32,322 nucleotides of DNA. Source: Terramyces sp. JEL0728. Taxonomy: Eukaryota > Chytridiomycota > Chytridiomycetes > Rhizophydiales > Terramycetaceae. Of the stretch, positions 984 to 29,121 are shown piece after piece (positions within the stretch are counted from its first letter, which is position 1; each line of letters begins with the position of its first letter). The stretch is from assembly GCA_027603945.1 (NCBI GenBank), contig JADIIU010000139.1:1-32322 (forward strand), in the 5' to 3' direction. The translations under genes and the position numbers were made by a program. The notes under the pieces are model-generated. The model saw only the letters and a list, made by a program, of their open reading frames with translations, did no database searches and had not been told where the DNA came from.

Positions 984-3900
984 ATGAATTACATGTTCAA
1001 CAACCTATCTCTGAACAATCAAGGCGAAATCGCAGAAATACAACAGCTACTAATCAAATACAAGGAAGGAACGCTAACCAGTACGTATAATTAACCTAGA
1101 TCAAGGTAATTTCCTTTAAAACAGATAAACTGCTTCAATTCTTTAACATTAACATTGAAAAACAATATTTGAATTTACAGCTTCAGAAATATATTGCTCT
1201 GCTGGATAGTTCAGAAGAAATCGTCCATTTTATTACAATCAATCATATCAAACAATTACTCATCTTGCATAATGAAAAATTCATTTTACAAGACTACATT
1301 TTATTGTTTAATCAAATACCGAATGATACCGTCAAAGCTATTATTGTTGTACTGGCTTATCTGACAGATCCCAGGTAATTTAATCTAAATTCAGATTTTC
1401 GGCTGATATTCTAACCAGCTCACCAACATTAATCCTTGATATCATCAGAGAAATGAACCCGGAAACGAGTCAGATTAAGCACTTTTTTGCCCACCGAAAG
1501 ACTGGTAAAAGTTGTTAACTGGAGCGATTCAGTTTAGAGACAATCACTTGAAGGATTTATTTATCTCATCATACAATCAGTTTAAACAAACTGTACCGCA
1601 AAAAGTATCAGAGACGTGGCTACAAGTATTGTCAGTGTGTTTATCATTTGATTTCCTTGGGACAGTCGGCGATCAAGGTATTTAAAAAGTAACAAGATAA
1701 CCATGGTATGAACTCGGCGATTCAAATTCCCACCAGTTGGAGAGACTTGGTATTCAACAATGAAATGATGGATTTCCTATATTACACCTTTGAAAATTAC
1801 AAAGAATTAGCTTCGCCAGTACTGGAATGCATAGAGTACCTGATGGGATGCAGAAGATCGTTATTTGTTGAAACAGAAAGAATAGAGTACTTGAAACATT
1901 CTTTAGGAATTGCAGTTAAAATACTGCGTTCAACTAATTTAGCTCCATCTTTTTACAACCAAGGTACCTTTTCCTGAATTAGAATTGCTCAAGATGTGCT
2001 TGCGGTTCTCTACGGTTTATTGTATAGACATGAAGAAATTGGACGAAAGCGAGATTTACATGAATGAATTCTTGCAGTACTGTCTGAAATATTTCAACTT
2101 TGTATCCAGTACTAACTGTAGGCAACTATCACCGAGTTGGTGTTTATAATTCAGATATGGGTTCAGTTGAGGGAAACAGAACACTTGTTCTTTGTCACCA
2201 ACTTATCATCTGTGCAGCAAGTAATCTTAAACTCAAATAGTTTCTACTAATGTTCATCAATCTGCCTGTTGCTACGTTAGAACTGTTTTATTTTGATGAT
2301 GCACATGCGGTTGAACAGTTATTGCCATGTTTGGGTAAATTAGTTAGAACTTCAAACTACCCATTCATGGCTAATGGAATGATGTCAAGATTTAATGAAG
2401 ACGGCAAAAGAGCTGAATACCTTGGTACTTGCTGGATCATAGGATTAGCAAACGCTTGTTTATCGCATAGGTAATGGCTGATTAATCCCAGGTACCTTTC
2501 GTATTTTTAATTTAATTAGAATTGCGTATCAAGCTACAGAAGAAGAGGATAAAGTTGATGGATTTATAATTGGAACTATTTTCCAGTACTTGGATTTCAA
2601 ACCGATACAAACTGTTCCAAATCAAAATGAGCAGTTGGTTGAATGTGCAGTGTTTTCACTCATGGAGCAATTTAAACAGGTTTATTTAGTGGGCGATGGT
2701 TCAACATGCCCGCAAATGTGGCAAGCTGTAGCAAGTCAAGCTCAAATCACATCGCAACACCAAATTCTACTGAAAATTATTCCAAGAATGTACTTGAATG
2801 TTGATTTAGTGTTCACCATATTAAACAGGCAGTGTCAGAGCAGCTCGTAACAGCGGCAATCTCACTGTTTAAGGAACTTGTGAATGGGTAACCATTTTTA
2901 ACTCAGCGTGCATACTTGCAAATTACTCCAATCAAAAGAACTCAAACAGTTTGTAAGAGAATGTGGGATCTTTGAAATCTCTGTTACAGTTACTACACAG
3001 CAATCAAAGTCGATAATGATACTATACGAGTGTATAAGTAAGCTTTATTTATCAGATCACTACAATGAATCAACAGACACCAATTTGCAACAAATATTAT
3101 CGTCACTTGCACGGTTCATTGACAGCAACTCTTTTGATATTACACAGATCCACTTATTGATAAGAAAATTGCGCGGAATATCAATGTCTGTCTTTACAAC
3201 CAAGCTATACAAGATCTTGTTTGACTGGCTATTGCCCAGGTTCCCAAAGATTAAGGAATATTTGCAACTTGGTAATCTGGAGCTGGGAAACAATATTTTG
3301 AAATTCATGAAGGAGCTTACGCGCAATAAGGCAAACAGACTTAATTTTGAAACCTGTGGAGAATATGGGTAATTGTTGCTTGACAAAGTGTATTATTGTT
3401 TAGGGAAACTGTGTCGCTTATAATTACAATATTCACACAGCTAGAGCCAGAGATTTCCAATGCAAACGATCCTTCGCCTTATTTGAAGCCTATTTACATT
3501 ACTTTTGAAATCCTCAAGAACCTTATCAGTAGTAAAGCAACACCGTTTGGTATTTTGAAGTTCTATCGCGAAGAATGTTTACCACAGATGGTTCAAATTG
3601 TATTTACACTCTCTTCACGGCTCTCGCCGCCGTTGTTACTTGTAATTGTTGATAACCCTAGGAATATAACAAGCTTGGGTTTGCCTATTTCTCTGTCTGG
3701 GTTTGTATGACTGGAGAGTACATGCCATATCTGCTCCCAGATATCACTGAAACGGTATTGAACCAGCTGTTGATGAATTGCTTTAAAGTGATTGAAAATC
3801 ACGATAATTCAACTTCGACACAAGCAGCAGTCATAGTCAATCAAATCTTTTCCAAAGTTCACAGCGACGCGACGCACACATTCTTTTCGCTCAATGTTGA

Positions 3901-4234
3901 ATCGCATGCACACAATTTTTGCCAGCTCTTGTTCTATCGGCTGTTCAATTTTGAACTGGATACCCAATGGTCACTAACTCGTCCATTCTTGCCTGTCATA
4001 TTATTCAATGTAGACTATTTTCATGCATATACTAGTAAAATTATTTCAATCCAAACCGATAGACTCCCATCGGAAACCAGTTGGGCACAAGTGCTATATG
4101 GAATTATGAAAGAGCTGGAGTACGATTTAAATGTACGAACCCGAGACAAGTTTACGAATAATGTTGATAATGTCAGGCGCAGTCTTAAAAGCCTTGGAGT
4201 TTCACTCATATTTGACGATTTCGAATATAATTAA
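984..4234 (+). CDS. XPO7: exportin-7 (RanBP16 family) nuclear transport receptor
   Basis: Exportin-7 is an importin-beta superfamily HEAT-repeat receptor that carries cargo across nuclear pores with Ran. The spliced protein is about 986 aa, close to the roughly 1087 aa of the animal protein. Landmarks I recognise are HRKTAIQFRD, IQIPTSWRD, RRSLF, FRETVSLIIT and a C-terminus with TRDKFTNNV. Introns removed: 1081-1124 (or 1081-1099 plus 1106-1124), 1375-1394, 1505-1524, 1678-1696, 1964-1982, 2102-2121, 2221-2240, 2471-2519 (or 2471-2491 plus 2501-2519), 2809-2828, 2888-2906, 3369-3388 and 3642-3661. Each restores the frame across a shift or stop and rejoins XPO7-like sequence. The start is the ATG at 984. 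The N-terminus is shorter and more divergent than in animals. It converges on the SRR1-like gene with 6 bp between stops. Confidence 0.92.
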
Positions 4235-4240
4235 TTGCGT

Positions 4241-5071: not shown

Positions 5072-5975
5072 ATGCAAGCAGACGAAGTACGTATTGATTA
5101 ATTCTTTAGCTGATTTGGAAGACCATAGCTTTCAACTTTTGCGCATTCAAAGTCAAAACTGAAACCCAAAACTTTTGTAGAAACGAATATAATGTAACTG
5201 GACTGTGCAGTAGAATGTCCTGTCCTTTGGCAAACAGTCGATATGCAACCGTAAAGGAAATCGAGGGGCAACTATATTTATTTGTAAAGACAATTGAAAG
5301 AGCCCATACACCAAAACGAATGTGGGAAAAAATTAAGTTATCAAAGAATTATACTCTAGCATTGAAACAAATCGACGATGAATTAATATACTGGCCTGAA
5401 TTCATGATTCACAAAAACAAACAGCGCCTAACCAAACTAACTCAAATGTTGATTCGCACCAGAAGATTGGAACTTAAAACAAAACCAAAGTTGATTGGAA
5501 TAAACAAGAAGGTTGAAAGAAGAGAAGCCAAGCGAGAAATGAAGGCCGAAAAGGCTGCGAAATTGGAGCTTACTATTGAAAAAGAACTGCTTGAGCGATT
5601 GAGAAAAGGTGTATATGGAGATGGCATTGTCAATGAAAGCACCCAAGCCTTTGAAAAGGCATTAGATGAAATCGAAGAAATGCACGAACAAGATTATGAA
5701 GAAGAATACGAAGAAGAGGAAGACTTTGACTCTGTAATTTTATTTAATGATAGTTGGAAAGAGAATTTGTTTCGGATATCAGCGACGAAGAAATTTCAGA
5801 CATTGAAGATCAGGGTGAAGACCAATCTGAATCCGGCGAATCCGATGATGACGAAGAAGAACAGCCAGCAAAGAAGAAAACTAAACGTAAATCGATTTTA
5901 ATTATAGGCGGCAAATTCATTAATGTTGAATATGAACATGAGCAGGAACCACAGCAACAAATTCATAATTGGTAA
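5072..5975 (+). CDS. MAK16: MAK16 ribosome biogenesis factor
   Basis: MAK16 is a nucleolar factor needed for 60S subunit assembly. The spliced protein is 286 aa. A tiny first exon codes MQADE, then a 23-nt intron (5087-5109) leads into [14 protein letters not shown]. The family's cysteine-rich core follows ([19 protein letters not shown], with ANSRYATV next), then [33 protein letters not shown] second intron at 5734-5753 (20 nt, gtaattttatttaatgatag) joins the acidic region to [13 protein letters not shown]. The acidic tail and the KKKTKRK basic cluster are typical of nucleolar proteins. A TAATAAA overlaps the stop codon and may serve as the polyadenylation signal. The first intron is needed to reach the conserved N-terminus, which makes this one of the clearest ultrashort-intron cases here. 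Confidence 0.95.
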
Positions 5976-5993: not shown

Positions 5994-8972
5994 TTATAAA
6001 GATCCCAGCAGCTCATTACGCTGCTGTTCGATTAGAGTTTCAAGGTGTGTAGCACGCTGTATTGTCTCGTCCAGCTGGCCCTTTAGCTTCATGATGTAGT
6101 CATCTTTGGCTTTCAAGGTTTGCACAATTTGTTTTTCAACATGGCTAATGGTTTGATCCTACGCTTAGAGCAACTTACTTTATCATTTTCAATCTTTTGC
6201 AGTCTCTCATTGTAATTTTTGTTTGCAGCTTCCAGTTTAACTTCTGCTGAACTCAGCAATTGTTTCGATTGGCTAATTTCCTGCAATTTAGCTTGAATTT
6301 CTCCTTTGTGTTCCGCCTTTAATTGCGCAATCACACTGGTTTCGTCACCATTCAGTCTGTCTAGTTCCTGCTTTTGTTTCTTTAGTAGTCCATCTTTAGA
6401 AATATTGGAATGCTGCAGTTGAAGAATTTCCTTTTGCGTATCTCTTAAACTGGTCTGTAACTCTGCTACTTGCTGTTGTGATAGTAACAGCTTGTCCAGT
6501 GCCATGCTGTGTTGATCTCGCAGCTGTTTTATTTCTTCGGCTGTTTCTGATTTGATACGTTCAATATCCATTCTATAGCGTCTAGTGGCATCGCTGTTAT
6601 TTGAACCTGTTTCGGATTCTAATCTTTGAATAACCATTTCGATTTCTGCATCTCTTTGTTGGATGAGCTGATCCTTAAATTGTTTCTGGATTAGAATCTA
6701 GTTACTTCTCTGGCCCGAACTGACACTTCTACTTTTTTCATGTAGTTTGCCTGCCATTCCTCTTTTTCAATTTGGAATTTCTCCCTCAGCTGGTTCATGT
6801 CCACCATATGCTTCTTGTTTTGCTCATTCAACATATTATCGCGATCCGTTCGCTCTTGCTCCATTTCTCTCCGTAAAGATTCCAACGCTCTCTTCCTCGA
6901 TGCTTCTTCATTTTTGAGGTTATCCTTGGCAGCTTCGTTCATCCGTGCTCGCTCATCAGAAAATTCTGCTTGCAATTTCCTTTTTTGTTGTTGAAACTGA
7001 ATTAAACATTAATTTACTTCCATTTCTTCTCTCTCTAACTGCTTCATATACCGCTGTCTGGAGAATTCTCGCTCTTCTTCACACGCTTTTTGCCGTTCCG
7101 AAATATATTTATCGCGCATCTGTTCTAATTGTCGTTGGTGCTGCTCAATGAGACTGGCTTTTTCCTTTGCTAGCGACTCTCTATACCCTTCTTCACTTTG
7201 GCGTAGCTGGACCTTGTGCTGGGCAATCAATTTCTGTATTTCAGGCTCAAGCCCTAAAACAGTTTGATCTTTAATAGACTTTGTTTTTTCTTGGATCCAT
7301 TTGTCCCTCTTTATCTTTTCTGCTGCTTGCCACATTTCTCTGTGTTGTTTCAGCTCTCTCTGCTGACTCTCTTCCATGGTTTTCAGCTTTTCTTGGTACA
7401 TGGCATCCAGATTTTTCACTTGTTCGGTCAACTCGACACTCTTTTTTGATATTTCTTCTTTTTCCACTAATACTTTATCAATAAATGTCAGGTGTCTCTT
7501 GACTATAGTTTCATATTCTTTTCTTTGTAGCGACAATTGCGATTTTAATGACTTTTGGTGTTGAAGCATTTCTTCTTTGGCTATTTCTTTATTCCTTTGC
7601 AATTCTTGCTTCAGTGCCTCGATAGTTTTCCTTTTGGAGTCTATCTCCATTTGCAATTGCATCATTTTCGTCTTGACCCCTTCAAATACAGCTGCTTGTG
7701 TTACAAAATAGTACCTGAGGTTTCTGGAACTCCTGTTGGCTGTTCTTTCAACAATTCTGCAAAATTGGCTTGCTTTACAGGCACTGCTGGAGAAGAGTCT
7801 TCTTCAACAGACTTTAAAAAGTCCAAAATTCTAGAAACACGATCTCCAACTTGATCGAAAGTATTATTTGTGTTATTGCGAGCTAAATGCTCATTTTGGT
7901 TAAATTCATCCTTGTTCTTTTCATCCAAACATGCAGCACTGGAAGCGTTTTTCTCTTCTGTCTTTGTATGGCGAGCGTTCTTTTTATTGACTATACTTTT
8001 GCTCTGCAGACTGGTTTTAGACTTGTTTGCCGATTCTTGCCTCTTTTGTGGTGCATATTCCTGTTTTTCAGACAGAGTATTTTCATTCTGTTTTTCCGGG
8101 TTGTTTGCCTCGCGAACAGCTGCAGGCACAGATAAACTCATCGGAATGATAGACATACTATGCTTCATTTGAGCCTTTGCTGCTTTGTCTGACAGAGCTT
8201 CCGCACTTTCTACGTCCTCACAGTCTTTCGCATTCTTGTCTACTGACTCTTGCATCTGTTCAATATATTCTTCAATCCCATCAATATCTATACACCATGA
8301 AGGGAACGCTTCGATTTCCTCTATGGAATCAATCACACTCTGTGGTGGCAAAGGAGACTCTTCTTCAAACGAATCATAAGGATCGAAATCGTCTTCGTAT
8401 TTGAATTCAACGACAGGGAAATGAGGGATTTCGGCACTGTAATACGAATTGACTGCTTCAACTGTTTGGGTTAAATCTTCCTCCTTTGGCAGCTGATTTT
8501 GTGCTACAGTGTTTTGGTCATTGTTCAGCTGTATATCATTTGTAGATATTCCTCTTTTATTTTCAACAGTTTGCGCCAACATTTCTTTTAAAATATCTGC
8601 CTTTGCCTGCTCTGCCAGCTTCTTTCTCCTTTCCAATTTCCTTTTTTCTTCAGGATCCATTGCTGCTATCTCATCTGGTATCTCATCTGGTGCGACATGG
8701 ACTTTCTCTGACACGAATACAGGTTCTGAAATTGATTCAGACGCGTTGACATTCCTAGATTTCTTCTTGATGTTTCTGTACCATATCTGTATAATACTTG
8801 CGTTTTCATTCAGTAGTTTCATAAAAGAATTGCCAGGTCGTGTATTAGAATCCGCGACCAGAGTGTCTGCAGACCCGCTTTTCAATATTTTCTTCTTTGG
8901 AGTATTTGCCTTTGTCTTTGCTGTAATTTTTGACTTGGAAGTTAAATGAGTGGCTGGCAGCCTTTTGAACAT
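5994..8972 (-). CDS. CEP131: CEP131/AZI1-like centrosomal and basal-body coiled-coil protein
   Basis: CEP131 is a centriolar-satellite and basal-body protein needed for cilium formation in animals. The spliced protein is 965 aa against about 1080 in human. The N-terminal third is low-complexity and acidic, with an IQ-like motif near residues 58-71 (ASIIQIWYRNIKKK). The remainder is almost continuous coiled coil and includes the recognisable FEGVKTKMM and EIEMVIQRLE blocks. Introns are at 7695-7714, 6997-7017, 6686-6705 and 6159-6178 (gtaagttgctctaagcgtag). The last one is required to reach the conserved C-terminus HVEKQIVQTLKAKDDYI. The start is the ATG at 8972; the TTG at 8984 only extends the frame. 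It is strong evidence for a flagellated stage. Its start lies 32 bp from LCB1. Confidence 0.85.
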
Positions 8973-9004: not shown

Positions 9005-10645
9005 ATGGAGACGTTGTTTGAAAAAAGTATACTCGTCAACGACGCTGCAAAGGAACTGGCAACGCACATCGTAATCGCAGTCAACACCACTTTTACAGTT
9101 GCTAACGATATTTACAGAAAAGTTCCAGGAAGCAGTTTTTTTTACAAATATGTTCATAATTCCTACCAAAATGATCCGTTTAGACTCTTCTTGGAACTAC
9201 TCTTGGTTGCATTTATGATCTGGTATTTTGTCGCAAAGCGCTATAATCCTGCAAATCCAGAAATTAAACTAACTGAAAAAGTAGGGTGTAATTTTACCTT
9301 AGGAAATCCAAGATTTGATTACTGAGTGGGAACCAGAACCGCTTGTCCCTGTATTGACTGACTTTCAGAAACAAGAATTGGAACGAACCCCAATTACAAT
9401 GGGACAGGCTGGTTTGAAGTCTAAAACCATTGATGGAAGAGAAAGATTGAATTTTTCAAGCTACAACTTCTTGGGTATTATGAATCAGGAAAGCACTAAA
9501 GAAAAGGCTATCGAGGCACTTAGAAAGTACGGTGTTGGCACTTGTGGGTAAGCTGTAAATTAATAAGTCCTCCTGGGTTCTATGGAACTTTGGATGTTCA
9601 CTTGGAGTTGGAAGAAACCATCGCAAAGTTTTTGGGGACTGAAGCTGCAATTATCTATTCCCAGGGGTTTTCTTGTATTTCCTCTGTTATTCCAGCTTTC
9701 TCCAAAAGGGGAGATATCATTGTAGCGTAGTTATATCATTAACCTAGTGACGAAGGCGTTAATTTCGCTGTGCAAAAGGGTATCCAGATCAGTAGAAGTC
9801 ATATCAAGTGGTTCAAGCACAACGACATGGATGATTTAGAGAGAGTTTTAAAGGAAGTACAGATCGAACGTAAAAAAAAGAAACTTCCGTTGACTAGACA
9901 GTTTATTATTGTTGAAGGTGTCTATGCCAACACTGGCAGCATTTGCAATCTCCCCAGATTGTTGGAATTGAAGAATGAATACAAGTATCGTTTGATGGTT
10001 GAAGAAAGTATGTCGGTTGGCGTACTAGGTGCAAACGGGAGAGGCATCTCTGAGCATTATGGGATTGATGCTTCTGAAATTGATATGATCATTTCCACCA
10101 TGAGCAATGCACTTGCTTCATCTGGAGGATTCTGTGCTGGATCCAAAGAAATTTGCGAACATCAACGACTGTCTGGATTAGCATACACATTCTCTGCAGC
10201 ACTTCCAGCAATGCTGGCTGTTGCCGCCATCGAAGGAGTTAAATACGCCGAAAGTAATCCTCAAGCCTTTAGCCAACTATCGCAAAACTCCAAATCTATG
10301 CACAGTGCCCTAGTGAAAGGTATCTCAGGGCTACCGTTGAGGATCGATGGGGAACCAGGGTCGCCAATCTTCCACGTACGTTTAACCAAGCCATCCGAAT
10401 ACCGCGACGACGATGAACGTTTATTGCAAGAAGTTGTTGATTGGGTGATTCTGAATTAATATTAGGCTGCTAAAGACGGAATCTTGCTAACCAGAGCCAA
10501 ATATGTTATTAATCAAGAACATATGCCATGCGATCCAAGCATTAGAGTGTCCATCTCGTCTGGGTTCATCAAGAGGGACATTGAAAGAGCGGCCAACGTG
10601 CTACGCGATGGTGCTCGCAAAGCATTCAAGAATCGTCGATTATAA
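9005..10645 (+). CDS. LCB1: serine palmitoyltransferase subunit 1 (LCB1)
   Basis: LCB1 is the non-catalytic partner of LCB2 in the ER enzyme that condenses serine with palmitoyl-CoA, the first step of sphingolipid synthesis. The spliced protein is 518 aa. An N-terminal membrane segment lies around residues 61-77. The fold-type I aminotransferase blocks follow: [45 protein letters not shown] and EHYGI. At the place where LCB2 has its PLP lysine, this protein reads [11 protein letters not shown], which fits LCB1. Introns are at 9281-9302, 9548-9567, 9727-9747 and 10445-10465; each restores a conserved block (for example TCG joined to PPGFYG). The stop is at 10643-10645, beyond the last splice. 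Confidence 0.95.
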
Positions 10646-10989: not shown

Positions 10990-11011
10990 TGAGAAACCTC
11001 CACTTTTACTA

Positions 11012-12157
11012 ATGAACCTGGTGGTGGCGATTATATCCGCTCTAATATGCTTCTTTGGGTTGGTATGCTCGATAGTTCTGATAAAAGTACTGCCAATTTG
11101 ACAATAGAATCGAAGGAGGTATTCCATAAACAACAGCGGCTTTGGATTAGCAATTACTATTATTGCCATACTAGATTTGCTAAGTGAAGGTGTTTCTTTG
11201 GCTAATCTAGCGTTCTTGATGCTGACAATGATTTATTTGATAATTACTGGAACTGATGATACTCAAAACAAGAGCGGCTCGAACGATGATCAGGCACAGT
11301 TGACTACAGGAACAATGGCAATGTACGGAGTCTATGATGGACTACTATTCTTTTCATACAACATGTCTTTGGCAATCGCACTAATTTCACTTTATATTGT
11401 CAGGTTTCAAGGAAGCTCCATCAGAGTGTCTTGGGAGTTTGCAATTGCAGTTAGCTTTGTTTTGTCGATTGTATTTGCGCTGATTAACGTTGCTCCGCGA
11501 GATAAAGTCTTTCGGGGGATGGACCAACCGCAAAGGTATAAAGATGCTAATTACAGAGTTGCATTTATAATTCTGTTCGTTTTTATGGTTGTATCGTTCA
11601 TGGCGATGGTAGCGTGCTATGTAATGACGTTCAAGATGCTGGAAGCGATAAAGTCAAAAAAGAAGCATCCGCAGCGATCTGCATCCTTATTGATGGTTTG
11701 CTTTATCCAATCTCTCACTATTGCCAACTTTGTTTCTTGGTTTCCCTTCCTTTTGATATTTGTTGGGCAGTTGCTAGTTCCTGACGCAAGCAAATACAAA
11801 GATCTATGGAAGTTCCTCTCTGTGATGATCATTGGGCCGAAAGGTGCTGTGCATTTACTTGCTCTGGCAATCACATTCGCAAACAACAGCTACCCGCTTC
11901 AAGAGACCATCATTGATTCAGAGATGGATTTGGTAAAGATAGACAACAGCCATTTTACCGTGGAATCATTTTTAATTATACCATACACTGAAAATGCCAC
12001 TGTCGGAAAGCCAAACGTCGAAAAGTTTGAGTTAATGAATGCGGGAAAGAGGATTAAAAAGAAATTTACATTCCAAAGTCCTAATGCACCACTGAATCCC
12101 CTTTCACAAGCCGGAGTGGAGGTACAACGGCCGCAGCCTTCTTTGGACCGCAATTAG
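11012..12157 (+). CDS. seven-transmembrane receptor-like protein 1
   Basis: The spliced protein is 374 aa with seven hydrophobic helices, a very short extracellular N-terminus and a cytoplasmic tail of about 90 residues. The first exon (from the ATG at 11012) codes TM1 and ends in SIVLIK. A 21-nt intron (11087-11107) joins it to NRRYSINNSGFG, and without it TM1 would be lost. Family marks shared with four other genes here are a Trp starting TM4 (VSWEFAIA), QSLTIANF in TM6 and PKGAVHLLAL in TM7. It looks like a G-protein-coupled receptor of the cAMP-receptor or class-B-like type rather than rhodopsin class, since no DRY or NPxxY motif is seen. The ligand is unknown. Confidence 0.7.
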
Positions 12158-16172: not shown

Positions 16173-16258
16173 TCTAATTTTTGAAAAATCAGACCCATTT
16201 AAGCGGTGCGGGAGTAGAGTCCTGCCCCGAGTCCCGATTAAAAAGGAAGCGAAATGAC

Positions 16259-17269
16259 CTAAACAGACAGAGTGTTCAAGGTCCATTCAATAGTGGGTAT
16301 AGAAGGCTCCGTGCTTGAAGTTGATAAGTTGGAATGAAGCTTCCCCTCTTTGATTTTGTATTCAGACATCCATAGTGCAATCATATGGTAAAACCCTTTG
16401 GAAGAGACAGTGATGGAATATAAATAGGAATAGATCATTGAATCCGATTGGATGATCTGGGCATCTTGGAATATATATAAATATGATATTGAGCAAATGA
16501 TATTTGAAAGAGTGAGGGCTTGAATCATATTCATCATTATCCGGAGCGGTCTCGAATCTGCATTGATATTTGTCTTGTAAGAAGGGGTATCTCTGGTCCA
16601 CAGCTTGTACAAAGTGAACGTGAAAAACACAATCATCGGAATTAAAAGTGCAAATGAATAGACCAGAAATGCGATATCGTAGTTGTAATTCCTAATATAA
16701 ACCAAAGAATACCATTTAGCCCATAGCGTCAAGTATTTTACATCGTTGAAATAGCAGATCAAACTGCCTACACATAATATCAGCGGCGGCATCATTGCAG
16801 CTTTCAGCAGTCGTTTCCACCTTATGTTTTGTGAGGAACCATCAAGACAAACTACCGAAAAGGCAATGTAGGCAATTATCAACCCGATATCTCCAGATGA
16901 CAGCAGGAAAAAGTCCTGTACCTGCAGTGCTACTCGTTGCAGTTTAAACATGAGCCAAAATTCCGGATACTCTTCAAAAGATGTGCGAACGTTAAAGTTT
17001 GGATCGTAGAATTCTATTCCCAACCGGCATTGTTTGTACTCGACAGCTGAAAATAGCATCGTGCCAATCAACCACATTATTGATGACAGCAAATCAAAGA
17101 TTGCCATTGCGGCAATAAGGTATCCAAACCCATTTGGATTCTTGAAATATCTCTTGCGATTCTAGTTCAATTAATATGTTACATATAGGATTATCACTGA
17201 TCCTACTACTCCGAGTATTGAAAAGACGATTGTTGGCCAGTTCAAATACGTTTCAATACTACAATCCAT
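16259..17269 (-). CDS. seven-transmembrane receptor-like protein 4
   Basis: The spliced protein is 329 aa with seven predicted membrane helices. The first exon from the ATG at 17269 codes TM1 (WPTIVFSILGVVGSVIILY). A 21-nt intron at 17162-17182 joins it to NRKRYFKNPNGFG. This position and phase match the introns of receptors 1 and 5. Marks are IRWKRLLKA at TM4, QALTLSNI in TM6 and SKGFYHMIALWMSEY in TM7. It lies head-to-tail with receptor 3, 86 bp upstream of that start, so the pair is a tandem duplication. The tail is Ser/Thr-rich, as in many receptors regulated by phosphorylation; that role is inferred. Confidence 0.7.
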
Positions 17270-17694: not shown

Positions 17695-18734
17695 ATGACT
17701 GAAATACAGTTTGAACCTCGTAAAATCGCACCTCAGGATGGATGGCAAGCAGCAGCAATAATATTTTGGATCCTAATGTATCCATTATTAATGTCGCTAT
17801 ACTTTTCATTATACAAGTTTGAAACTCTAGTTCCATTCCTGTTGGCGTATCTCATTTACTTGTATCTCGACCCAGCACCGGAAATGGCCGGCAGAACGAG
17901 CAAGGTGTTTAGGAGTCTATCTTTGTGGAAGAGCATGCGAGGTATTTTAGGCTAATGCAGACTATTTCCCTGCAAGGCTTGTCAAAACTGCAGAGTTAGA
18001 TCCAAGCAAGAACTATATATTTGGATATCACCCCCATGGTGTTATCGGACTAGGTAATCATCCAATTGATGGCAGGTGCATTTATCAACTTTGGCACTGA
18101 TGCAAATTCATTCAGCGATATGTTTAAAGGAATCGAGCTTCATTTAATTACCTTGGACGTCAACTTTTTTATGCCCATAGCTAGGGAAGTATTGCTATTC
18201 CTTGGGATCTGTGCTTCATCTGAAAAATCTTGCAACAATATCGTAACTAAGAAACCAGGAAGCTCGCTCATGCTTGTATTAGGTGGTGCCCAGGAGTCTA
18301 CTCTTGCATTTCCTAATACCAACGGTTTAATCTTGAAAAAACGTTTTGGATTCGTTAAAATCGCCCTAAAGAATGGTGCTTCTCTAGTCCCAGTATTTAG
18401 TTTTGGTGAAAATGATATCTGGGATCAATTACCTAATCCTAAAGGCTCGTTATTGCACAAATTCCAAGACTTTTCTCGTAAAACCCTAACATTCGTACCA
18501 CCAGCTATCTACGGCCGCGGTTTATTTAGTGAAGGATTTGGCCTAATGCCTCATAGAAGACCTATAACTTCAGTTGTCGGTGCCCCAATTGATTGTCCAA
18601 AGGTAGAGCGTCCATCCAGGGGATTGATATTGGAATACCAACTCAAGTATATTCAAGCTCTTGAAGACTTGTACCACACGCATAAACACAAATACTTGCC
18701 AAACAGACAGGAAGAATTAAAGTTTGTTGAATAA
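17695..18734 (+). CDS. DGAT2: diacylglycerol O-acyltransferase 2 (DGAT2 family)
   Basis: DGAT2 transfers an acyl group from acyl-CoA to diacylglycerol in the ER to form storage triacylglycerol. The spliced protein is 332 aa. An N-terminal hydrophobic hairpin (residues about 20-60) is followed by [12 protein letters not shown]. The family signature [15 protein letters not shown] carries the catalytic HPHG at residues 106-109. Later blocks are [30 protein letters not shown] and GRGLF. Introns are at 17942-17960 (gtattttaggctaatgcag) and 18054-18075 (22 nt); both are needed to assemble the signature. The stop codon lies inside a GAATAAA, so stop and polyadenylation signal appear to overlap. It could equally be a monoacylglycerol acyltransferase of the same family. 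Confidence 0.9.
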
Positions 18735-18764: not shown

Positions 18765-19389
18765 TTATTCATAATCAATGGAAATGTATATACCCTCTCT
18801 TGCAATCCATAATTCATTTTCTCCTCTGGAATTCCTACCGCTGATTTCTAATTGTCCGTTGATTGGATTTCCATAAGTATATCTAGTATTTGAAGACAAA
18901 TATGCTCCAGTATCCGCATGTTCTATGTTAACAAAAGGTACTCAAAGCGACAGCTTCTTCCCTCTTCCACACTTTTCCTTTGCACTCAACAATCCAATTA
19001 TCACCGGTATCTGCTACATCATACGCAGACACTTCCTGCTGTTGCGACAAAGGACTTGCAATCTTGTGAGAGTGTAAGAGTTTTTTAGTGTTTGAATGTT
19101 TCAGTCTGATAGTTGAACCACAAGATATAGAAACTCCACGGGTACAATATTGGCCGTATTCTCCAAACACCGCAAAGTAAGAATTGGGGTCGTTTGCACT
19201 TTGGAATCCAGTAACTGATTGCTGTCCTGAACCGCTTCCGTAATTAACTTCATGCGAGTGCAGAAAGTATCCTGATGGTTTATGAGCCAGCTTTATTATC
19301 GAGCCGCAAGTAACTGTAGCAAACTCTTTTTCCAATACAAAATCTGCTGCTATTATCGAAGTTATTAAGATTGCAAGCTTTGAAAGCAT
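18765..19389 (-). CDS. SDF2: SDF2-like ER protein with MIR domain
   Basis: SDF2/SDF2L1 are small ER-lumen MIR-domain proteins that work with Hsp40/BiP in quality control of secreted proteins. The spliced protein is 201 aa. A signal peptide (MLSKLAILITSIIAA) is followed by three MIR repeats: VTCGSIIKLAHKPSGYFLHS, GSGSGQQSVTGF and RLKHSNTKKLLHSHKIASPL. A 19-nt intron at 18923-18941 (gtaccttttgttaacatag) joins EEAVAL to KHADTGAYLSS in the third repeat. No KDEL-like signal is present at the C-terminus (ISIDYE). The start is placed at ATG 19389 because the signal peptide begins there, although the frame stays open upstream. It converges on DGAT2 with 30 bp between stops. Confidence 0.9.
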
Positions 19390-19628: not shown

Positions 19629-21709
19629 ATGTCTGCAAAGGGTAAAAAGAAGGGAAAGAAAGAAAAGGCTCCAAAGGAAATCAGTCCAGGTATTTCATTA
19701 ATAAAAAAGAAAAGCTTGCAGAGCAGCAAGAGCAGCGCACATTGGAATATTATCAAGTAAAAGTGTCTGATTTGATGGACAAGTTGGAACGAATGTAAGA
19801 TTAAATTTATCAAAGGAAATCCAAAAATGAGACTCTTCAAAAGGAAAATACCACTCTTGCGCGGACTCAAGCTAAATTCTATAGCGATAAGCAAGATATT
19901 GTGGAATTTTTGAACATCAAGGTTGGAGAGCATGAGAGAATGATTGCCAATTTGGAAAATAAAAATCGAACTTTGGATCAGGAGAAAAGGGATATGGAGT
20001 TGCATTATCAAACGCAAATAGCTAATCTTGAAAAGTCGTCGCAATTGGAACAGGAGAATCTGAATCAGCAATGTCAAAAATTTAAAACAGAGTTGGTCGA
20101 GCTGTCTTCATTTTCAGCTCAGAAAGATGATATGGAAGAGCAACTGAAGCAATTCAAAATATTATTAGAAAAGAAAGAGAATGATTATCGCGAGACAATA
20201 CATAATTTGGAACGAAAAGTTCTCCAGGATAAAGTATTTAAAATCTTATGCCTAGAGCCAAATGAAACGAGAAATGCTGCAAAAAGTAAACGAGGCAGTT
20301 GCAAATTTCCGTCGAGTAGCTGACCAGCAAATGGCAGAGGTAATCAGCAATTAATCAGACAACCAAAAGAGCAATCAGGGAAAACATGTCAATCACTGCT
20401 CAGCTGAAAAAAATGAGCTTGAAAACAGTCGAGTTTATTTCTGAAAATGAAGCTTTGAACGAAAAAATGAAGAACCTGAAAACGACAAACAGCCTGTTGA
20501 TGGAGAGTGAAAGAGAGTTGGCGAAAAGGAATCACGCCAACCAAAAAGTAATTAAAATGCTGGTTGAAAAGCTGAAAGGTAATTGGATTTCATTGCTAGA
20601 AAGCGATCAAATGCTAGAAATTGCTTTTGATGATCCAAACTACGATCCATTCCAACCACCAAGAGAATTTTTGACAGAGGAAATGATAGAAGTGCCTAAA
20701 ATCTAAAATTAGGAAATCAGAGAGCTCCAGGACGATTATAATATCCTTGCAGACAGGCTAGGTACACTTCCTGATGTGGAAAGCGATCTGAGATTAATTA
20801 TTGAAGAAGCAGAGACAGCGATTGAATCAGATACAGCAACCCAGGAAGTACTAGATTATATTCAATCTAATTTGCAAATTATTGCAGACAGGTTCTTTGC
20901 TTTAACGTAGACTGAACGAAATGACGCTGTTTGATGACAACCAAGCACCTGAGGAAGATAGTCAGGATTCTCAATCAGAACAAGAATATTATGAAGAGTA
21001 TGACCAGGAATCAAATATCGCACAGTCTACTTCCGCTTCAAACAAATCACTTGAGGAAATAAAGAGCGACGAGGAGTCTGTAAGCAATTTGGAACAGAAT
21101 TCAATTGCACAATCTCAAGAACAACTAGACAGTGTCACTCACTCCTTGAAAGAATCCCAATTCCCTTCAAAAGAAGATTTTAGCTCTGAAGATTTAGAAT
21201 TCCCAGAAGGTTATGAGGAAGAACCATTCGAAATTGATGAATCTGCGTATTCGGAAGCATCTACGCCAACAATATCGTCAAAATCAACCAAAAATGCAAA
21301 AGAAAAGATACAGGCGATCACATTAAGTCCAAGGAAACCGGGTCAAGGGCCCAATCAGTATCAAAGAAAGATTGAACTAAACTTTTTGAAAATGATCGAG
21401 CCAACGAAAAGGATTACGTACAATAATGAAGTCCAGCCAGATATTCTTACATTTGGAACCCAAAGAACAATTGGAATTCAAACCAATCCATTCAAATTCG
21501 GCCCGTCTGTCAACACCGATTATCTACTAGGCGATGTTCGACCGTGGGGCAACAAAGCTGAATGCTTACCGCAAAAAGGACTTGGGATGTATGTATCACG
21601 AAGCCATCAAACACAAATGACCAAAATCTTGACTAGCGCTCATCAAAAAGTAAAGAATGAGACTAAACTACCACCTGTCGTTTCCAGCTTGAAAGCCAAT
21701 CGAATGTAG
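19629..21709 (+). CDS. BBOF1: BBOF1/CCDC176-like basal body-orientation factor
   Basis: BBOF1 is a coiled-coil protein of motile cilia and basal bodies. The spliced protein is about 645-652 aa. It starts with a basic segment (MSAKGKKKGKKEKAPKE) like that of the family, then long coiled coil. The strongest block is NLERKVLQDK joined to MKREMLQKVNEAV, then ADQQMAETTKRAIREN and KVIKMLVEKLK, which matches animal BBOF1 closely. Introns: 19690-19709, 19795-19815, 20234-20255, 20340-20358, possibly 20579-20599, 20692-20712 and 20892-20910 (gttctttgctttaacgtag). The last one removes a TAG and joins IIADR to LNEMTLFDDNQ in frame. The acidic reading frame that begins 10 bp later at 20921 is therefore its C-terminal part and not a separate gene. 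That tail is Glu/Ser-rich and disordered, ending in an ordered, unrecognised segment (RTIGIQTNPFKFGPS). Confidence 0.8.
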
Positions 21710-21751: not shown

Positions 21752-22356
21752 TTAATTTGGCTTCAAAGTTGCAGTCAAGAACTTTTTACCCAAATTACCC
21801 ATAATTTCGTGTCTCTTTTCATGGGATAATTTGGTATACGCTTCATAAACACTGACGCCTTTCATGTCTCTAACCTTTCCGGCTTTGTTTCCATAGTACC
21901 CTCCAATAACCGCTCCAGGAACATTCAAAACAATAAATCCAAGCATCACACCGGCGACGGATCCAATTGGCTGCCAGAAATAGCTAGGTCAATAAAGATA
22001 TACGATGGGTTTGGTACTTCTGGGACCATTAGATCATTGAACATTTCAGAGAATATTTGAATTGGATTGACACTTGAAGTAAAGTTAAAGTGGTTTTCCT
22101 CATCATATTGCAATCGTCTTTCCTTATCACTAGGATTAGCTTAGGCTACCTCAAGACAAAGTATGCATTGGCGATTTCCTGGAATCTGACAGTAGCGTCT
22201 TCAGAAGAGTTTCTATCTGGATGGTATGTCAACTATTATTAGCCCCGTTCACAAATCAAAACCAAAAGCACTTACCGATTCTCTGATGTAGGCTTCTCTG
22301 ATTTGAGCTTCAGTTGCATTTTTCGGGATTCCTAGAACTTGGTAATAATCAGACAT
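21752..22356 (-). CDS. J-domain protein with C-terminal glycine-zipper membrane segment
   Basis: The spliced protein is 173 aa. The N-terminal J domain reads MSDYYQVLGIPKNATEAQIR, followed by the HPD motif at residues 31-33 (LTYHPDRN), so it can stimulate an Hsp70. The C-terminal half has NPSYFWQPIGSVAGVMLG and PGAVIGGYYGNKAG, a glycine-zipper membrane hairpin, then KGVSVYEAYTKLS. Introns are at 22233-22275 (43 nt, one of the rare longer ones), 22130-22149 (gtagcctaagctaatcctag) and 21984-22003 (gtatatctttattgacctag). The first separates RES from LTYHPD, so the J domain itself proves it. The zipper suggests anchoring in the ER or mitochondrial membrane; which one cannot be read here. Confidence 0.85.
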
Positions 22357-22572
22357 TTGAACTTGGATGGAAACTTGTCCAAGCCATCTCGGTTCTTTTG
22401 TTTCACCGCTAATTTTTCATATGGGATTCCTAGAGATACACTAAATCAAATATACAATTAATCAAGCTGCAATATCTCACCATTGTTCTACCTACTGGCG
22501 ATAAGTCATGTCAATTTGGAAGTGCTTTATTTAAAACTACAGAGGAGATATTTCATCGCATCTACAGTTAGT

Positions 22573-23653
22573 TTATTCATACTGTCTGATTATCCTTTCT
22601 ATCGTATCAAATGTATTGCTGAAGTTTAGAAACATTTCAAAAACCTCTTTTGCGTGTTCTTCAACATTATCGCCAATGAGTTTGAGATTCCTTATACCAG
22701 TACGCTCCAGTTGATCATACAGCAAGCTAGAGCTTTCATATGGCACAACCGCATCCCTTTTCGTGTGTATCAATATCCAGCTGACCGGCAAATACTCTGG
22801 ATTGATTTGGTTAGATCCAAGCAGAATTGTTGGAGAGTGTGCATCCGTTGGTTGAAATAATCGTTTCATGCAACTCAATTCTTCTACCCCTCTTTTGGAT
22901 TCCCATTTAAAGTGCTCGCAGATATCATAAGGTCCGTTCATCAGGAACAGTCCCTTTACTTTGTGTAGATTTAGCTTCGCTGATCCATTCATCATGTCCA
23001 TTGCATGCCTGACTATGGATAGACATACTGAATGAGCACCTGCTGAATGACCCATCACAAAGATATCAGATGGCGAGCCTCCATAATCGGATATATTGTT
23101 TATCGTCCACTCTATTGCCTGTTGTATGTCATCAATCATAATCTCTGCAGTTCCTTCCGGCCACAAAGTGTAATCTGGCATGACCACTACGTATCCTCTT
23201 TTGTGAAAATTGTCTGCTATCGGAGAGTATAATCGTTTGCTACCAGAATTCCACGATCCGCTAACGTTAATCTGATCAAATTAAAGAAATTGCCGGTGCA
23301 CTTACCCATAAAAGAACACTATCACTGGATTATCCCTACTATTCTGCGGATAGACGTCCAGCTTTGTCTTGAAACTTTTACTGCCAAAATTGATATTCAA
23401 TCTACATTAACCCGGATTACTTTGCTATTGATTTCTCATTCCTGTACCATTTCATAAAATGAATCTTTCCAACTTGTAATGACGGGCCAAAAATGTATCC
23501 ATAAATGATGGTCAAAAATACATGTGTAATTTTTGCAATTCGGACTGGGTTAATTGGTATATTTGGATGAGGTTTGTGATCTGCCATTGAATAATAGAGC
23601 CACCAGGTTATTGCATATGATGATAAGATAAATAAGAGGATGTAATGTAACAT
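22573..23653 (-). CDS. isoprenylcysteine methylesterase-like alpha/beta hydrolase
   Basis: The spliced protein is 338 aa. An N-terminal membrane helix (LLFISSYAITWWLYYS-like, residues about 1-20) and a second hydrophobic stretch precede an alpha/beta-hydrolase domain. The oxyanion segment FFYGGSWNSGSKRLY is made only after removing a 45-nt intron at 23261-23305. The other intron is at 23402-23420 (gtaatccgggttaatgtag). The domain continues with VVVMPDYTLWPEG, nucleophile elbow GHSAGAHS, acid loop HTKRDAVVPY and EEHAKEVFE. The architecture resembles ICME-type prenylcysteine alpha-carboxyl methylesterases and related carboxylesterases. The substrate is inferred from family resemblance only. A Ser-Asp-His triad looks complete. 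Confidence 0.75.
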
Positions 23654-24500: not shown

Positions 24501-24616
24501 CGTGCTAAACTGTTCCATGAAACCACGCACGGTTGTGTATGCCAAACTAGCATTTTCGGTCAAATTAAAAACTGTATGCAGTCATAAAAACCAATCTATG
24601 CTAAAACAGAAATTTA

Positions 24617-25528: not shown

Positions 25529-25555
25529 TGCTGTAGGAAAAACATCGCGGCCACA

Positions 25556-25724: not shown

Positions 25725-26726
25725 ATGAAGACAATATTTGAGGATATTGACTCTCCGCAAATTGGAATCACGACCGCCTTCCTATCCATAGCTTCACTGT
25801 TAGGTGTGTTTGGGTCGCTGCGGATATTATTTGTATTTTTCGATTTATCATAGAACAAAAACCTTCCTCGAAATGCATTTTTAGGGTTAATATGGCTAAT
25901 TGCAATAATTGACTTTTGGATGTCATGTAATATTATTTAACGCAGTTGCCGGACTTGTATATTGTTGTTGTTTACTGTTTGGAATATTTTATAGCGGGAT
26001 TATCTTCAAATCAACTTTTTTCTTGGAATTCACCTTGATAATGCTGAATTCATTCATATTCTTGGGATTTCTCCTCTCCGTAATTCCACTGTACATTGTA
26101 AAATTCGGAGGGTCGGTGGAATCCATTTCTTGGAAATTGATGGGGATTGCATCTTTTATACCTGGGATAGTATTACTATTCATCGCAAAGAAAATGTAAC
26201 TGGAATTAACAGCAGTGATGGCCAGAGTTTCAGCATTTTGTACTACATCCTTGTCCTTATTGTAATTATTAATATGGTCCTTTCGTCGTATATAACATGG
26301 AGAAAGCTAAAAAGCCAGCAATTAGTTAGGAGGCAGCAATTTCACGACACCGCATCGTTTGATCACAGAGAGGAACGGAATCACAAAGCCTCGATTCTCA
26401 TGATGAAGTTTATCATCTATTTCACCTTGTTCAATATTGCGCTTTTATCACCGATTGTCGTAGCTCCAATTGTATATGCTATTATACCAGATATCAAATC
26501 ATTGCTGTTTTTCAAATTCGTAGAGCTAGGCTATGACATTGTATTTTTATCAACTGGACTATTCCATGCATTGGGAGTTGAATATGCATTTAATAGAACA
26601 AGAAAAACACATGTGCAAACTATTTTAGGATTTAACACCTCAGATAGAGCGCAATCGCCGCCAATCCAAGTCCTGTCCCATTCACCAGAACCGGAGCGAT
26701 ATGCTTCTCCCATACCAAACGAGTAA
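25725..26726 (+). CDS. seven-transmembrane receptor-like protein 5
   Basis: The spliced protein is 313 aa with seven predicted membrane helices and a proline/serine-rich tail. Introns are at 25833-25853 (after TM1, before NKNLPRN), 25927-25945 (gtaatattatttaacgcag, inside TM2) and 26196-26215 (gtaactggaattaacagcag; the acceptor could also be 3 nt earlier). The first matches receptors 1 and 4 in place and phase, the second matches receptor 2, so this member keeps both. TM4 starts with ISWKLMG and TM6 carries YFTLFNIAL. TM7 has STGLFHALGVEYAFN, with Thr where the other members have Lys. It is 8 kb from the other four. Confidence 0.65.
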
Positions 26727-26870
26727 TTAATATTAATGTAGAATTGCTGTTGCTGAAAATCAACCAATGTGGATCGCATTTGTATATCTGTACTCTACTA
26801 TTACGTTACTCTTTAGAAAATTTTACCCTACCGATGAAAATAATTAATAAAGCGCATTATGATTATGATT

Positions 26871-29121
26871 TTATTTACATTTACTGGTGTTTAAATTAAT
26901 CATTGGCAGCTTTTTGTACGGTGTTAGTTCAATATCCATCTCTGGCGTACAAGTCATGCAATCTTTGAGACTCAGCACTCTACGCCGATCATCAAAGTGC
27001 TCTGGCTCCTCCTGTTGAAGAACCTTTCTTTCCTTTTTCAATCTCTCGATTTCAGCTTCAATATTTCTAATATACGTATTCTGTCTATTGATTTCGCTTT
27101 TCAATTGAGTATGTTCAAACAAGGCTTGTTTCATTTTCGAATTGATAAAACTTTCAAATTTCTACGTTAGCTAAGACTTACATTTGCTGCTTTTTCAATT
27201 ATCTTTCCTGCTGTTTCTGCAAGCTTGTTATCAACGTCCTCTTGCAGATGATCAAATTGGGCCATGTTGGTTTCCAATTTAGTGTGCAACAGCTTCAAGT
27301 GGTCATTCTTTTTTTCTATTTCAAACTCAATCCTTTTCGCGCTGATTGTTGGATCTTCAAACGTTTCCTTTGCAAATATTCGCAAATCCTCCAAATCGTC
27401 GCATTTTGCTTTGTATACTGAATTCAATTCGTCGATTTTTTTCAAATGTGCTGATTAATTTGGGGAATTACCTTTTTCTTCCTCTTCCCAGGATTTTATA
27501 GTGCCGCCAAAAGTCTTTACAAGGTCTTTTCTTTCTTGCGTATTCTTTTTCTGCAAGCCTTTTATTTGATTGATAAAGTCCGAGTTTTTCTTTAATGTTT
27601 CTGACACTCGCACATTAATATCTGCCAATAAAAAGTTGTATTCTTTTTTTAGTTCCAGATTTTCTGCTTCCCTACCATTACTGTAACTTACAATCTTTTC
27701 AAAAGTGCTTGGAACGATTTAAGACTGTAAAGCGATGTAATGATACTAAGTCAGAAATCAAGGTACTATGCTCTTGTCTCTTCCAACGACCCAACTTTTC
27801 GATCGACTTCGTCACTGACAACCTCCTTGTATCGCTTTCTTAGCCTAGTCAATGCCCGGTAATTCCAAGATGAAGTGTTGAACCTGTTTGCATTTTTGTC
27901 AATTAAAATTTCATCAGCTTTCCCATCATTTATTTCTGTCAATTTCATCGACTTGTACTTTTTGGCTGCAGGTCTGACACTCTTTCCACCCAAAACAAAC
28001 GCAAAATAGGGATCTCCTGGCCCTCTAAATGTTCCAGCTGTGTTACTGAACAAGTTATATTGCGATACACTCATTTTCAGGAGTGGGTTTGGCTTTGGAA
28101 CAATATGTGATTTTCTTTCTGATTTCCTTTTTGTAGTTGATGCAGTATTAACACGTTCTGGCTCGATTGGGGCTGCAGATGAATCTCGGAACTCGATATG
28201 TATCTCATCTTCCTTTTCTGTGGACGATTCATCTGAATCTGCTTCGTCAGACTCAACGGAAGCATCATTCTCTATCCACTTTTTACTATCCTCTGTTGCT
28301 TCTCTGGGTGGTTTTGCCGTTTCTAACAAGTCAGTACTTCCTAGTAATGGACTGTCGGCTTTTTTGGAGGGTATTATCCACCTGGCCTTTGATACCAATT
28401 TTACTGCTGGTCTTGCTCCCCATGCTGGTCTGTTTGTCAAAGCCGAGGTTCGTCTGAACGTTCCTGTACGTAATACGCCAGGAGGTTTTTTTAATGATGG
28501 CAGGACTTTACCCAGATCGCTTCGATTTGGATTTAATATATAGGTAGAAGCCATGCTTCCCCGTTTCTTGGGATACGATTTCAAATCTACTTGGTCGTGT
28601 AAAATATCTGCATTTTCCTTTTCATCTTCTATTGGGGATGCTATTTCTCCTTCTGTAGCTGGCTCTGTATCATTTTGCAGTTCTGCTGGTATCTTTTGGT
28701 CTTGATTATCTTCATTGATAGCATTTCCAGATGGATTTCTCCATAATGAAGATTCGTTTTGTGTCTCTCCGACATTTTCTCTGCTGGTAACTCTAACCTC
28801 CAGGTTTGGCGATTCACCACGATCCAATATCTCGTTGGAATCCTCGCAAATACTAACTTTTTTGGGTGTATTTAGTCTCGAAGATTCAACAGAAGCATTT
28901 CTACTGATTTTTGGCGAAGCAACTCTAATCGGCGATACTAAGAGTAAATCCGTCGCGTCTTCCAAAGGCGAATCTGGTCTTGATTTGATATATGCAGTGG
29001 TTTGTTTCTTTAGTATAGGAGGCTTTTCAGCTTCCTTCTTTTGCGGTGCTGAAGTTGGTCTGTGGGTTCGTAGCGGTGGTTTGGAAGACGATGCCCAATG
29101 TTTGGCAGGTCTATCAGCCAT
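26871..29121 (-). CDS. C20orf96-like (DUF4618-type) coiled-coil protein, probably ciliary
   Basis: The spliced protein is 722 aa. The first 390 residues are disordered, rich in Ser, Pro and charged residues. The rest is coiled coil, starting at SSWNYRALTRLRKRYKEVV and ending with CTPEMDIELTPYKKLPMI. Introns are at 27746-27766, 27672-27691 (gtaagttacagtaatggtag), 27451-27471 and 27162-27181 (gtaagtcttagctaacgtag). The first joins the long N-terminal frame (LEETRA) to YIITSLYSLKSFQALLKRLE in frame, so the whole stretch is one gene. Layout and C-terminal motif resemble the C20orf96/DUF4618 family, which I associate with ciliated organisms. That family call is moderate; the exon joining is strong. 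Confidence 0.6.

Follow-up and report, generated by a model that had tools for sequence, protein, structure and literature searches.

Our findings highlight a system of ultrashort introns in the chytrid fungus Terramyces sp. JEL0728 (Chytridiomycota, Rhizophydiales, Terramycetaceae), followed here through the window, by which we mean the whole 32,322-nucleotide (nt) stretch of DNA analysed (contig C139, bases 1-32,322), and through twenty 10-kb stretches from nine other contigs. Judged from the sequence, these are, with a probability of about 95%, U2-type (major) spliceosomal introns of the nuclear genome, reduced for the most part to 19-22 nt, and the ultrashort pattern is real, general within the sampled stretches, and most likely spliceosomal. 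The initial annotation of the window had proposed that the splicing system here is based on introns of 19-23 nt, and had placed about 49 introns in 16 genes between positions 984 and 29121, all but four of them in that length range. Our fitted gene model bears this out with 54 introns in 16 genes, of which 52 are 19-23 nt long and the other two 43 and 45 nt, and the same system recurs in the samples from the other contigs. The flagellar and fungal-type genes that had been noticed together in the window would be accounted for by the genome being that of a chytrid fungus.

Detection and length distribution of the introns

The window and the twenty samples together comprise 232,322 bases, or 1.5% of the assembly, which consists of 231 contigs and totals 15,016,339 bases. 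Introns were called with a two-strand gene finder that uses codon usage, start and stop codons, and introns of 10-150 nt at equal prior, with GT and AG ends as the sole demand placed on them. Under these conditions, with no preference for any length, the finder called 180 introns, of which 115 are 18-24 nt long, 5 are shorter and 60 are longer. The same finder supplied with each of eight decoy dinucleotide pairs made 136-154 calls, of which 11-23 had lengths of 18-24 nt and 97-122 exceeded that range. The short class is real because 115 calls stand against the 11-23 obtained with decoys, whereas the 60 longer calls mean little, since they fall below the decoy level. When donor, branch and acceptor profiles were learned, still without a length prior, the calls rose to 290, with 245 at 18-24 nt, and the further addition of a learned length prior (the fitted model) gave 387 calls, all but thirteen of them (374) at 19-23 nt. 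The resulting peak is narrow (19 nt, 87 calls; 20 nt, 156; 21 nt, 84; 22 nt, 39; 23 nt, 8) and the intron density is high, at about 1.7 calls per kb, which by simple proportion would extrapolate to some 25,000 such introns genome-wide.

Withholding the window's introns and codons from the final fit left 53 calls in the window, all among the 54 and 52 of them at 19-23 nt. Judged by the lengths, the one that was missed is the 45-nt intron, whose loss splits one gene and thereby gives 17 intron-bearing genes. This hold-out is not fully clean, because the window had been among the data in the preceding rounds of fitting, from which the training introns came.

Intron anatomy and the splicing machinery

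The internal signals of these introns are most fairly judged on the 115 calls made without motifs, because the 378 fitted introns of 18-24 nt were chosen with the branch profile. At the donor of the motif-free introns, GT is followed by A at +3 (0.88), A at +4 (0.55), T at +5 (0.50) and T at +6 (0.59), such that most introns start with GTA and show a weak preference for GTAATT, and the acceptor reads T/C-AG. A YTRAY motif is present in 86 of the 115, compared with a mean of 25.3 and a maximum of 35 over 200 shuffles of the intron interiors, and its A lies at position 14 or 15 in 72 of them (shuffle mean 4.7, maximum 9). The fitted introns, with a mean length of 20.3 nt, place the best branch A at position 14 (144 introns), 15 (138) or 16 (36), the remainder being scattered, so that 282 of 378 have it at 14 or 15; counted back from the last G, it lies 5 nt (145) or 6 nt (140) upstream, 285 in all. 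Among YTRAY-bearing introns, a length of 19 nt is mostly composed as 14+5, 20 nt as 14+6 or 15+5, 21 nt as 15+6, and 22 nt as 16+6. The donor-to-branch and branch-to-acceptor spacings are both narrow, and intron length is set by the two combined. The rare longer introns, of 43 nt in a J domain and 45 nt in a BD-FAE hydrolase, are spanned by Pfam matches and carry a branch-like TAAY near the acceptor. A search with the exact TACTAAC-type pattern was uninformative (24 matches, compared with 109 for the reversed control).

The branch site is complementary to the GUAGUA of U2 small nuclear RNA (snRNA), and a U2 with this element intact (GUGUAGUA / GUGUAGUAUCUGUUCU) is encoded in the genome (140.2 bits, Rfam). 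The core machinery, assessed on U5, Prp8, Slu7, Cwc25 and Isy1, is likewise encoded. The U5 snRNA scores 85.9 bits, and the PROCN domain of Prp8 scores 774 bits within an open frame of 1,409 amino acids. Slu7 gave two matches (139 and 104 bits) to one and the same C3 stretch; its loss, which the short branch-to-acceptor distance had led us to expect, is thus refuted. Cwc25 begins with MGGGDLNLKKSWHP / MGGGDLNLKKSWHPNT, with its Gly-Gly-Gly intact, at two near-identical loci. Isy1 gave three matches, and the model of its N-terminus is uncertain where several tiny intron-like units follow one another. Near-identical loci on separate contigs (L038 on C30 and L039 on C33; L009 on C199 and L010 on C111) look as if they were uncollapsed haplotypes or recent duplications. 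Shortly downstream of the U5 gene lie two tRNA genes with identical scores of 55.8 bits (L012, 1901-1982 and 2330-2411).

The anatomy of the introns suggests how they could be handled. By intron definition, the spliceosome would treat each intron in its entirety as a single unit and recognize it by a fixed local geometry, with U2 on about nt 9-16, the donor's partner on nt 1-6, and some 2-3 free nt between the two footprints. The lariat loop closed in the first step would then measure about 14 nt, and the acceptor would be the next AG after the branch A, with no pyrimidine-tract spacer. Intron length is narrow because the two spacings mostly vary by about one nucleotide each. A more specific proposal, which we advance tentatively and consider rather unlikely, is that in Terramyces, and perhaps in its family, the helices of the donor with U6/U1 and of U2 with the branch site are directly adjacent, with donor recognition altered for GUAAUU through a diverged or dispensable U1 and a changed U6 while the branching and second-step proteins stay canonical. 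If true, minimal splicing geometry would be set by the RNA partners and the order of assembly and not by protein losses of the kind suggested for Stentor.

Junctions, alternative explanations and the genes of the window

The GT..AG ends of these introns restore a conserved reading frame, and most junctions fit in the three genes that were aligned. Serine palmitoyltransferase LCB1 has four introns, each 20-22 nt long, and its model is identical to the public Terramyces protein (518/518 residues). Four of the five chytrid relatives aligned show no break at any of its four junctions; in the fifth, the Kappamyces JEL0829 record, nine residues are missing exactly at the second. In the PDS5-like gene five introns measure 19 nt and the sixth 20 nt; our model encodes 1077 amino acids, the same length as the Boothiomyces JEL0866 protein, with which it is continuous at all six junctions, and the public Terramyces and Boothiomyces JEL0838 models have lost residues around the first two of these. 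The exportin-7-like gene, with 14 intron calls, yields 991 amino acids compared with 942 in the public Terramyces model, which is without one exon present in Boothiomyces, Kappamyces and P0124, and without both the first part of another exon and the residues DQ, all of which Kappamyces and P0124 have. More broadly, 35 of 45 introns fall inside a best Pfam stretch, as counted by eye in ten sampled proteins picked as recognizable families.

Some of these introns are already present in the public annotation, and the gene models as such are therefore not new. The public chytrid models P0121, P0129, P0131 and P0019 lose residues or exons beside tiny introns, and the practical consequence, as far as the alignments indicate, is that some of the proteins deposited for this group are damaged. 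In the protein alignment, the public model shows none of the six 19-nt exportin-7-like calls as such, which raised the idea of a 20-nt floor in the public annotation pipeline; this idea is refuted by the public PDS5-like model, which matches ours at four of the five introns of 19 nt.

It is conceivable that many of the short introns are real but that a sizeable part of them is unspliced or inefficiently spliced, with a coding output that differs from our models. The loss of residues from public models beside some introns would fit such behaviour, as would the 17 of 378 calls of 18-24 nt that are in frame without a stop. However, the other 361 have a length not divisible by three or contain an in-frame stop, although the method favours finding introns of this kind, and the spliced form of the protein is present in relatives at most junctions checked; we consider this explanation quite unlikely. 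In-frame stops occur in 71 of the 88 calls with a length divisible by three and in 173 of the 290 others, a bias from which nothing can be concluded about messenger RNA decay because detection itself favours stops. Intron phases (160/125/102) are unreliable for genes cut by sample ends and were therefore left unused.

Assignment to the minor (U12-type) spliceosome, whose introns likewise have their branch site close to the 3' end, is invited by the TTAAC branch near the AG, which resembles the U12 branch site. The U12 donor, however, is TATCCTT, and the donor consensus found here is GTAATT, with the frequencies at +3 to +5 given above, which leaves this assignment with very little probability. 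That sequencing or assembly indels break the frames, the introns being artefacts of a model that bridges them, is scarcely credible: a model with the wrong motifs does still bridge some breaks, but indels would not produce inserts of 19-22 nt in which GTA, YTRAY and AG keep a fixed distance from one another, both in the window and in the twenty samples taken from nine further contigs. Once these inserts are taken out, the proteins run on without a break relative to their relatives at most of the junctions examined. Short DNA inserts are eliminated in some protists, but removal at the DNA level, akin to the internally eliminated sequences of ciliates, or by another non-spliceosomal route, is hardly to be entertained for inserts with GT and AG ends and a branch site matching U2 in a genome that encodes U2, U5, Prp8, Slu7 and Cwc25, and we know of no such DNA elimination in fungi.

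Several observations weigh against the reading of these inserts as U2-type spliceosomal introns, or against individual calls. Decoy motifs with transposed letters, run under the same priors, produced 23-84 calls at 17-26 nt compared with 379 for the real motifs, such that roughly 6-22% of single calls (up to about a fifth) could be wrong; this is an upper bound because the decoys must also bridge true frame breaks. Five calls in the window, marked in the table, are weak. Our models and the public Terramyces ones part ways at the first two junctions of the PDS5-like gene and at several in the exportin-7-like gene. For 2471-2519 the comparison with relatives favours the public version, as the 9-nt 'exon' preceding the call at 2501-2519 is absent from that version and from both relatives that cover it. 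Because these two relatives are without the three extra residues of our model, 2471-2519 is probably a single 49-nt intron. U1 snRNA was not found in the assembly by Rfam, a search with no positive control, the named control genomes being prokaryotic, and U6 snRNA was not found by Rfam and core patterns, again with no positive control. The candidates for U6, two sub-threshold Rfam matches and two pattern matches, looked like coding sequence when inspected by eye, and a second core pattern had no matches; Rfam applied to 256 kb, including stretches upstream of U2 and U5, returned only U2, U5 and two tRNAs. These negatives may stem from a gap in the assembly, from divergence, from interruption or from a limit of the search itself. 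Finally, avoidance of the intron signal in exons (a branch-AG footprint) failed its control and is not used as evidence. In model-derived coding sequence, YTRAY N2-3 AG occurs 195 times in sense versus 228.2 (standard deviation 10.6) and 206 times in antisense versus 204.0, but in raw long open reading frames the count is 114 versus 120.7 (z -0.67) and wrong-spacing controls are more depleted (z -3.4 and -2.5). The idea is further undone by depletion of YTAAY on both strands and an excess of the full consensus on the sense strand (15 versus 7.6).

The site at 2471-2519 belongs to a set of composite introns, in which two or three intron-like units of 17-21 nt stand in tandem, 1-9 nt apart; the others are at 1081-1124 in the window and at 1963-2027 of sampled locus L041. 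The missing 9-nt 'exon' suggests that such tandem units may be removed together or in nested fashion.

The introns of the window are collected in the table. The family blocks named in the initial annotation were recovered, with Mak16, DAGAT, DnaJ and MIR matching Pfam and LCB1 recognized by homology. Of the ten window proteins (one partial) compared with Pfam, MAK16, DGAT2, DnaJ and MIR were confirmed and two hydrolases matched, two more gave weak matches and two gave none. Multi-pass membrane proteins that look alike by eye are encoded on both strands at 10894-13288, 15186-17269 and 25920-26847, the one checked in Pfam having no match, and a neighbouring pair, also alike by eye, lies at 29193-29873 and 30025-30693. 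A minus-strand fragment at 24061-24553 repeats, by eye, NQTDPTYSVN..LAHEISE of a Thr/Pro-rich protein at 31440-32322 that runs off the contig end.

Table. Positions of the introns called in the window, by gene, with the evidence for each
Gene (span)	Intron	Position	Strand	Basis
Exportin-7-like	14 intron calls	984-4234	+	Fitted model and alignment
Exportin-7-like	19 nt	1081..1099	+	Fitted model, alignment; may form 44-nt composite with 1106-1124
Exportin-7-like	19 nt	1106..1124	+	Preceding 6-nt exon aligns gap-free to Kappamyces protein
Exportin-7-like	20 nt	1375..1394	+	Same residues in public protein P0121
Exportin-7-like	20 nt	1505..1524	+	Fitted model, alignment
Exportin-7-like	19 nt	1678..1696	+	Preserves DQDNHGM of Kappamyces and P0124; public model three residues short here
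Exportin-7-like	19 nt	1964..1982	+	Preserves ELLK..RF..VY block of P0123 and P0124
Exportin-7-like	20 nt	2102..2121	+	Fitted model, alignment
Exportin-7-like	20 nt	2221..2240	+	Fitted model, alignment
Exportin-7-like	21 nt	2471..2491	+	Probably first part of 49-nt composite 2471-2519
Exportin-7-like	19 nt (call)	2501..2519	+	Weak; see composite 2471-2519
Exportin-7-like	20 nt	2790..2809	+	Following exon found in Boothiomyces, Kappamyces, P0124
Exportin-7-like	19 nt	2888..2906	+	Fitted model, alignment
Exportin-7-like	20 nt	3369..3388	+	Fitted model, alignment
Exportin-7-like	20 nt	3642..3661	+	Fitted model, alignment
MAK16 (5072-5975)	23 nt	5087..5109	+	Fitted model
MAK16	20 nt	5734..5753	+	Within Mak16 C-terminal domain (Pfam)
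MAK16	21 nt	5887..5907	+	Fitted model
Coiled-coil (5994-8972)	20 nt	6159..6178	-	Fitted model
Coiled-coil (5994-8972)	20 nt	6686..6705	-	Fitted model
Coiled-coil (5994-8972)	21 nt	6997..7017	-	Fitted model
Coiled-coil (5994-8972)	20 nt	7695..7714	-	Fitted model
Serine palmitoyltransferase LCB1 (9005-10645)	22 nt	9281..9302	+	As public protein; continuous in 5/5 relatives
LCB1	20 nt	9548..9567	+	As public protein; continuous in 4/5 relatives
LCB1	21 nt	9727..9747	+	Continuous in 5/5 relatives
LCB1	21 nt	10445..10465	+	Continuous in 5/5 relatives
Multi-pass membrane protein	21 nt (call)	11536..11556	+	Weak: reading frame open through, motif only
Mrp51-like (13397-14329)	21 nt	13700..13720	+	Fitted model; Mrp51 match weak
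Alpha/beta hydrolase (14454-15150)	19 nt	14626..14644	+	Spanned by Abhydrolase_11 30-215
Multi-pass membrane protein	21 nt (call)	16692..16712	-	Weak: reading frame open through, motif only
Multi-pass membrane protein (16259-17269)	21 nt	17162..17182	-	Fitted model
DGAT2-type acyltransferase (17695-18734)	19 nt	17942..17960	+	Spanned by DAGAT 48-329
DGAT2-type acyltransferase	22 nt	18054..18075	+	Spanned by DAGAT 48-329
MIR-domain, SDF2-like (18765-19446)	19 nt	18923..18941	-	Spanned by MIR 61-180
Coiled-coil (19629-21709)	20 nt	19690..19709	+	Fitted model
Coiled-coil (19629-21709)	21 nt	19795..19815	+	Fitted model
Coiled-coil (19629-21709)	22 nt	20234..20255	+	Fitted model
Coiled-coil (19629-21709)	19 nt	20340..20358	+	Fitted model
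Coiled-coil (19629-21709)	21 nt (call)	20579..20599	+	Weak: reading frame open through, motif only
Coiled-coil (19629-21709)	21 nt	20692..20712	+	Fitted model
Coiled-coil (19629-21709)	19 nt	20892..20910	+	Fitted model
DnaJ (21752-22356)	20 nt	21984..22003	-	Fitted model
DnaJ	20 nt	22130..22149	-	Within J domain (Pfam)
DnaJ	43 nt	22233..22275	-	Within J domain; spanned by DnaJ 3-64
BD-FAE-type hydrolase (22537-23587)	21 nt	22562..22582	-	Fitted model
BD-FAE-type hydrolase	45 nt	23261..23305	-	Spanned by BD-FAE 70-272; hold-out fit missed it
BD-FAE-type hydrolase	19 nt	23402..23420	-	Fitted model
Fragmentary gene	22 nt (call)	24505..24526	-	Weak
Multi-pass membrane protein (25920-26847)	19 nt	25927..25945	+	Fitted model
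Multi-pass membrane protein (25920-26847)	20 nt	26196..26215	+	Fitted model
Multi-pass membrane protein (25920-26847)	19 nt	26723..26741	+	Fitted model
DUF4618-like (26871-29121)	20 nt	27162..27181	-	Fitted model; DUF4618 match below cut-off
DUF4618-like	21 nt	27451..27471	-	Fitted model
DUF4618-like	20 nt	27672..27691	-	Fitted model
DUF4618-like	21 nt	27746..27766	-	Fitted model

Comparison with known ultrashort-intron systems

Ultrashort introns have been reported from ciliates, a nucleomorph, mikrocytids, dicyemids and a small set in Trichomonas, and their presence in a fungus would represent a further origin, in a kingdom with well-studied spliceosome structures. What is unusual here is the combination, in a fungus, of shortness with a retained branch site and retained core factors; a partial, open-access literature search, which included chytrids, Rhizophydiales, Rozella and aphelids, found no report of ultrashort introns in fungi. 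The literature figures that follow are drawn from excerpts of the cited papers. Cryptococcus introns, which are called relatively short, average 63 bp (PMC8476143), those of the microsporidian Encephalitozoon cuniculi average 35.8 nt (PMC2483917), and the shortest Trichomonas intron is 23 nt (PMC12316389). At about 20 nt, the introns of Terramyces would thus be shorter than the lengths which the papers examined here report from other fungi. Several other fungi and microsporidia resemble Terramyces in having GT-AG introns with CTAAC-like branch sites (PMC2483917).

The chlorarachniophyte nucleomorph, to which the initial annotation had likened these introns, offers a parallel in length but not in sequence. 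Introns of the Bigelowiella natans nucleomorph are 18-21 nt long, and as in Terramyces the range is narrow, the introns are many and the genome is compact (PMC10245619). That nucleomorph is, however, a relict endosymbiont nucleus whose donor is largely GT(A) and for which the excerpted text describes no branch-point signature (PMC2483917), whereas Terramyces presents a plain branch site in a fungal nuclear genome. In the same excerpts, Paramecium, the nucleomorph and dicyemids, the three lineages named there as having the shortest introns, are all without a branch-point signature, and degenerate signals are given as a trend among very short introns and not as a strict rule (PMC2483917). Terramyces breaks this trend, as do the conserved introns of mikrocytids. 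Paramecium (20-33 nt) and Nyctotherus (21-29 nt) have introns of comparable length, but both are ciliates, and Nyctotherus, as excerpted, is without a branch motif (PMC2633312). The introns of Mikrocytos mackini are likewise tiny (16-17 nt), uniform and conserved in sequence, but they number 224 in a parasite with a reduced spliceosome (PMC10245619), as against about 1.7 calls per kb in Terramyces, where the few core factors sought are present except for U1 and U6, which were not found.

A further comparison is with the heterotrich ciliates, with introns of 15-16 nt (PMC10245619). Stentor coeruleus shares with Terramyces a near-uniform intron length and a near-fixed branch position, at A10 in 15-nt and A11 in 16-nt introns, but differs in having no strong branch consensus, as far as the excerpt describes it, where Terramyces has 19-22 nt introns with one (PMC9505925). 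With a turn of only 10 nt, Stentor is described in the excerpt as lacking the glycine motif of Cwc25, with an Isy1 N-terminus that is not conserved and with neither Slu7 nor Prp18 detected (PMC9505925). Terramyces, in contrast, retains Slu7 and the MGGG start of Cwc25, so introns of 20 nt do not require such losses. This bears on the idea of a steric clash without deciding it for 15-nt introns, and Terramyces can separate the hypotheses by keeping both features alongside a lariat loop that would measure about 14 nt. In human reporter introns, the minimal productive donor-to-branch length is 46 nt (PMC11291888), compared with the 14-15 nt found here, and Terramyces thus raises the question of what has changed, and represents a test case for the smallest intron that the splicing machine can handle.

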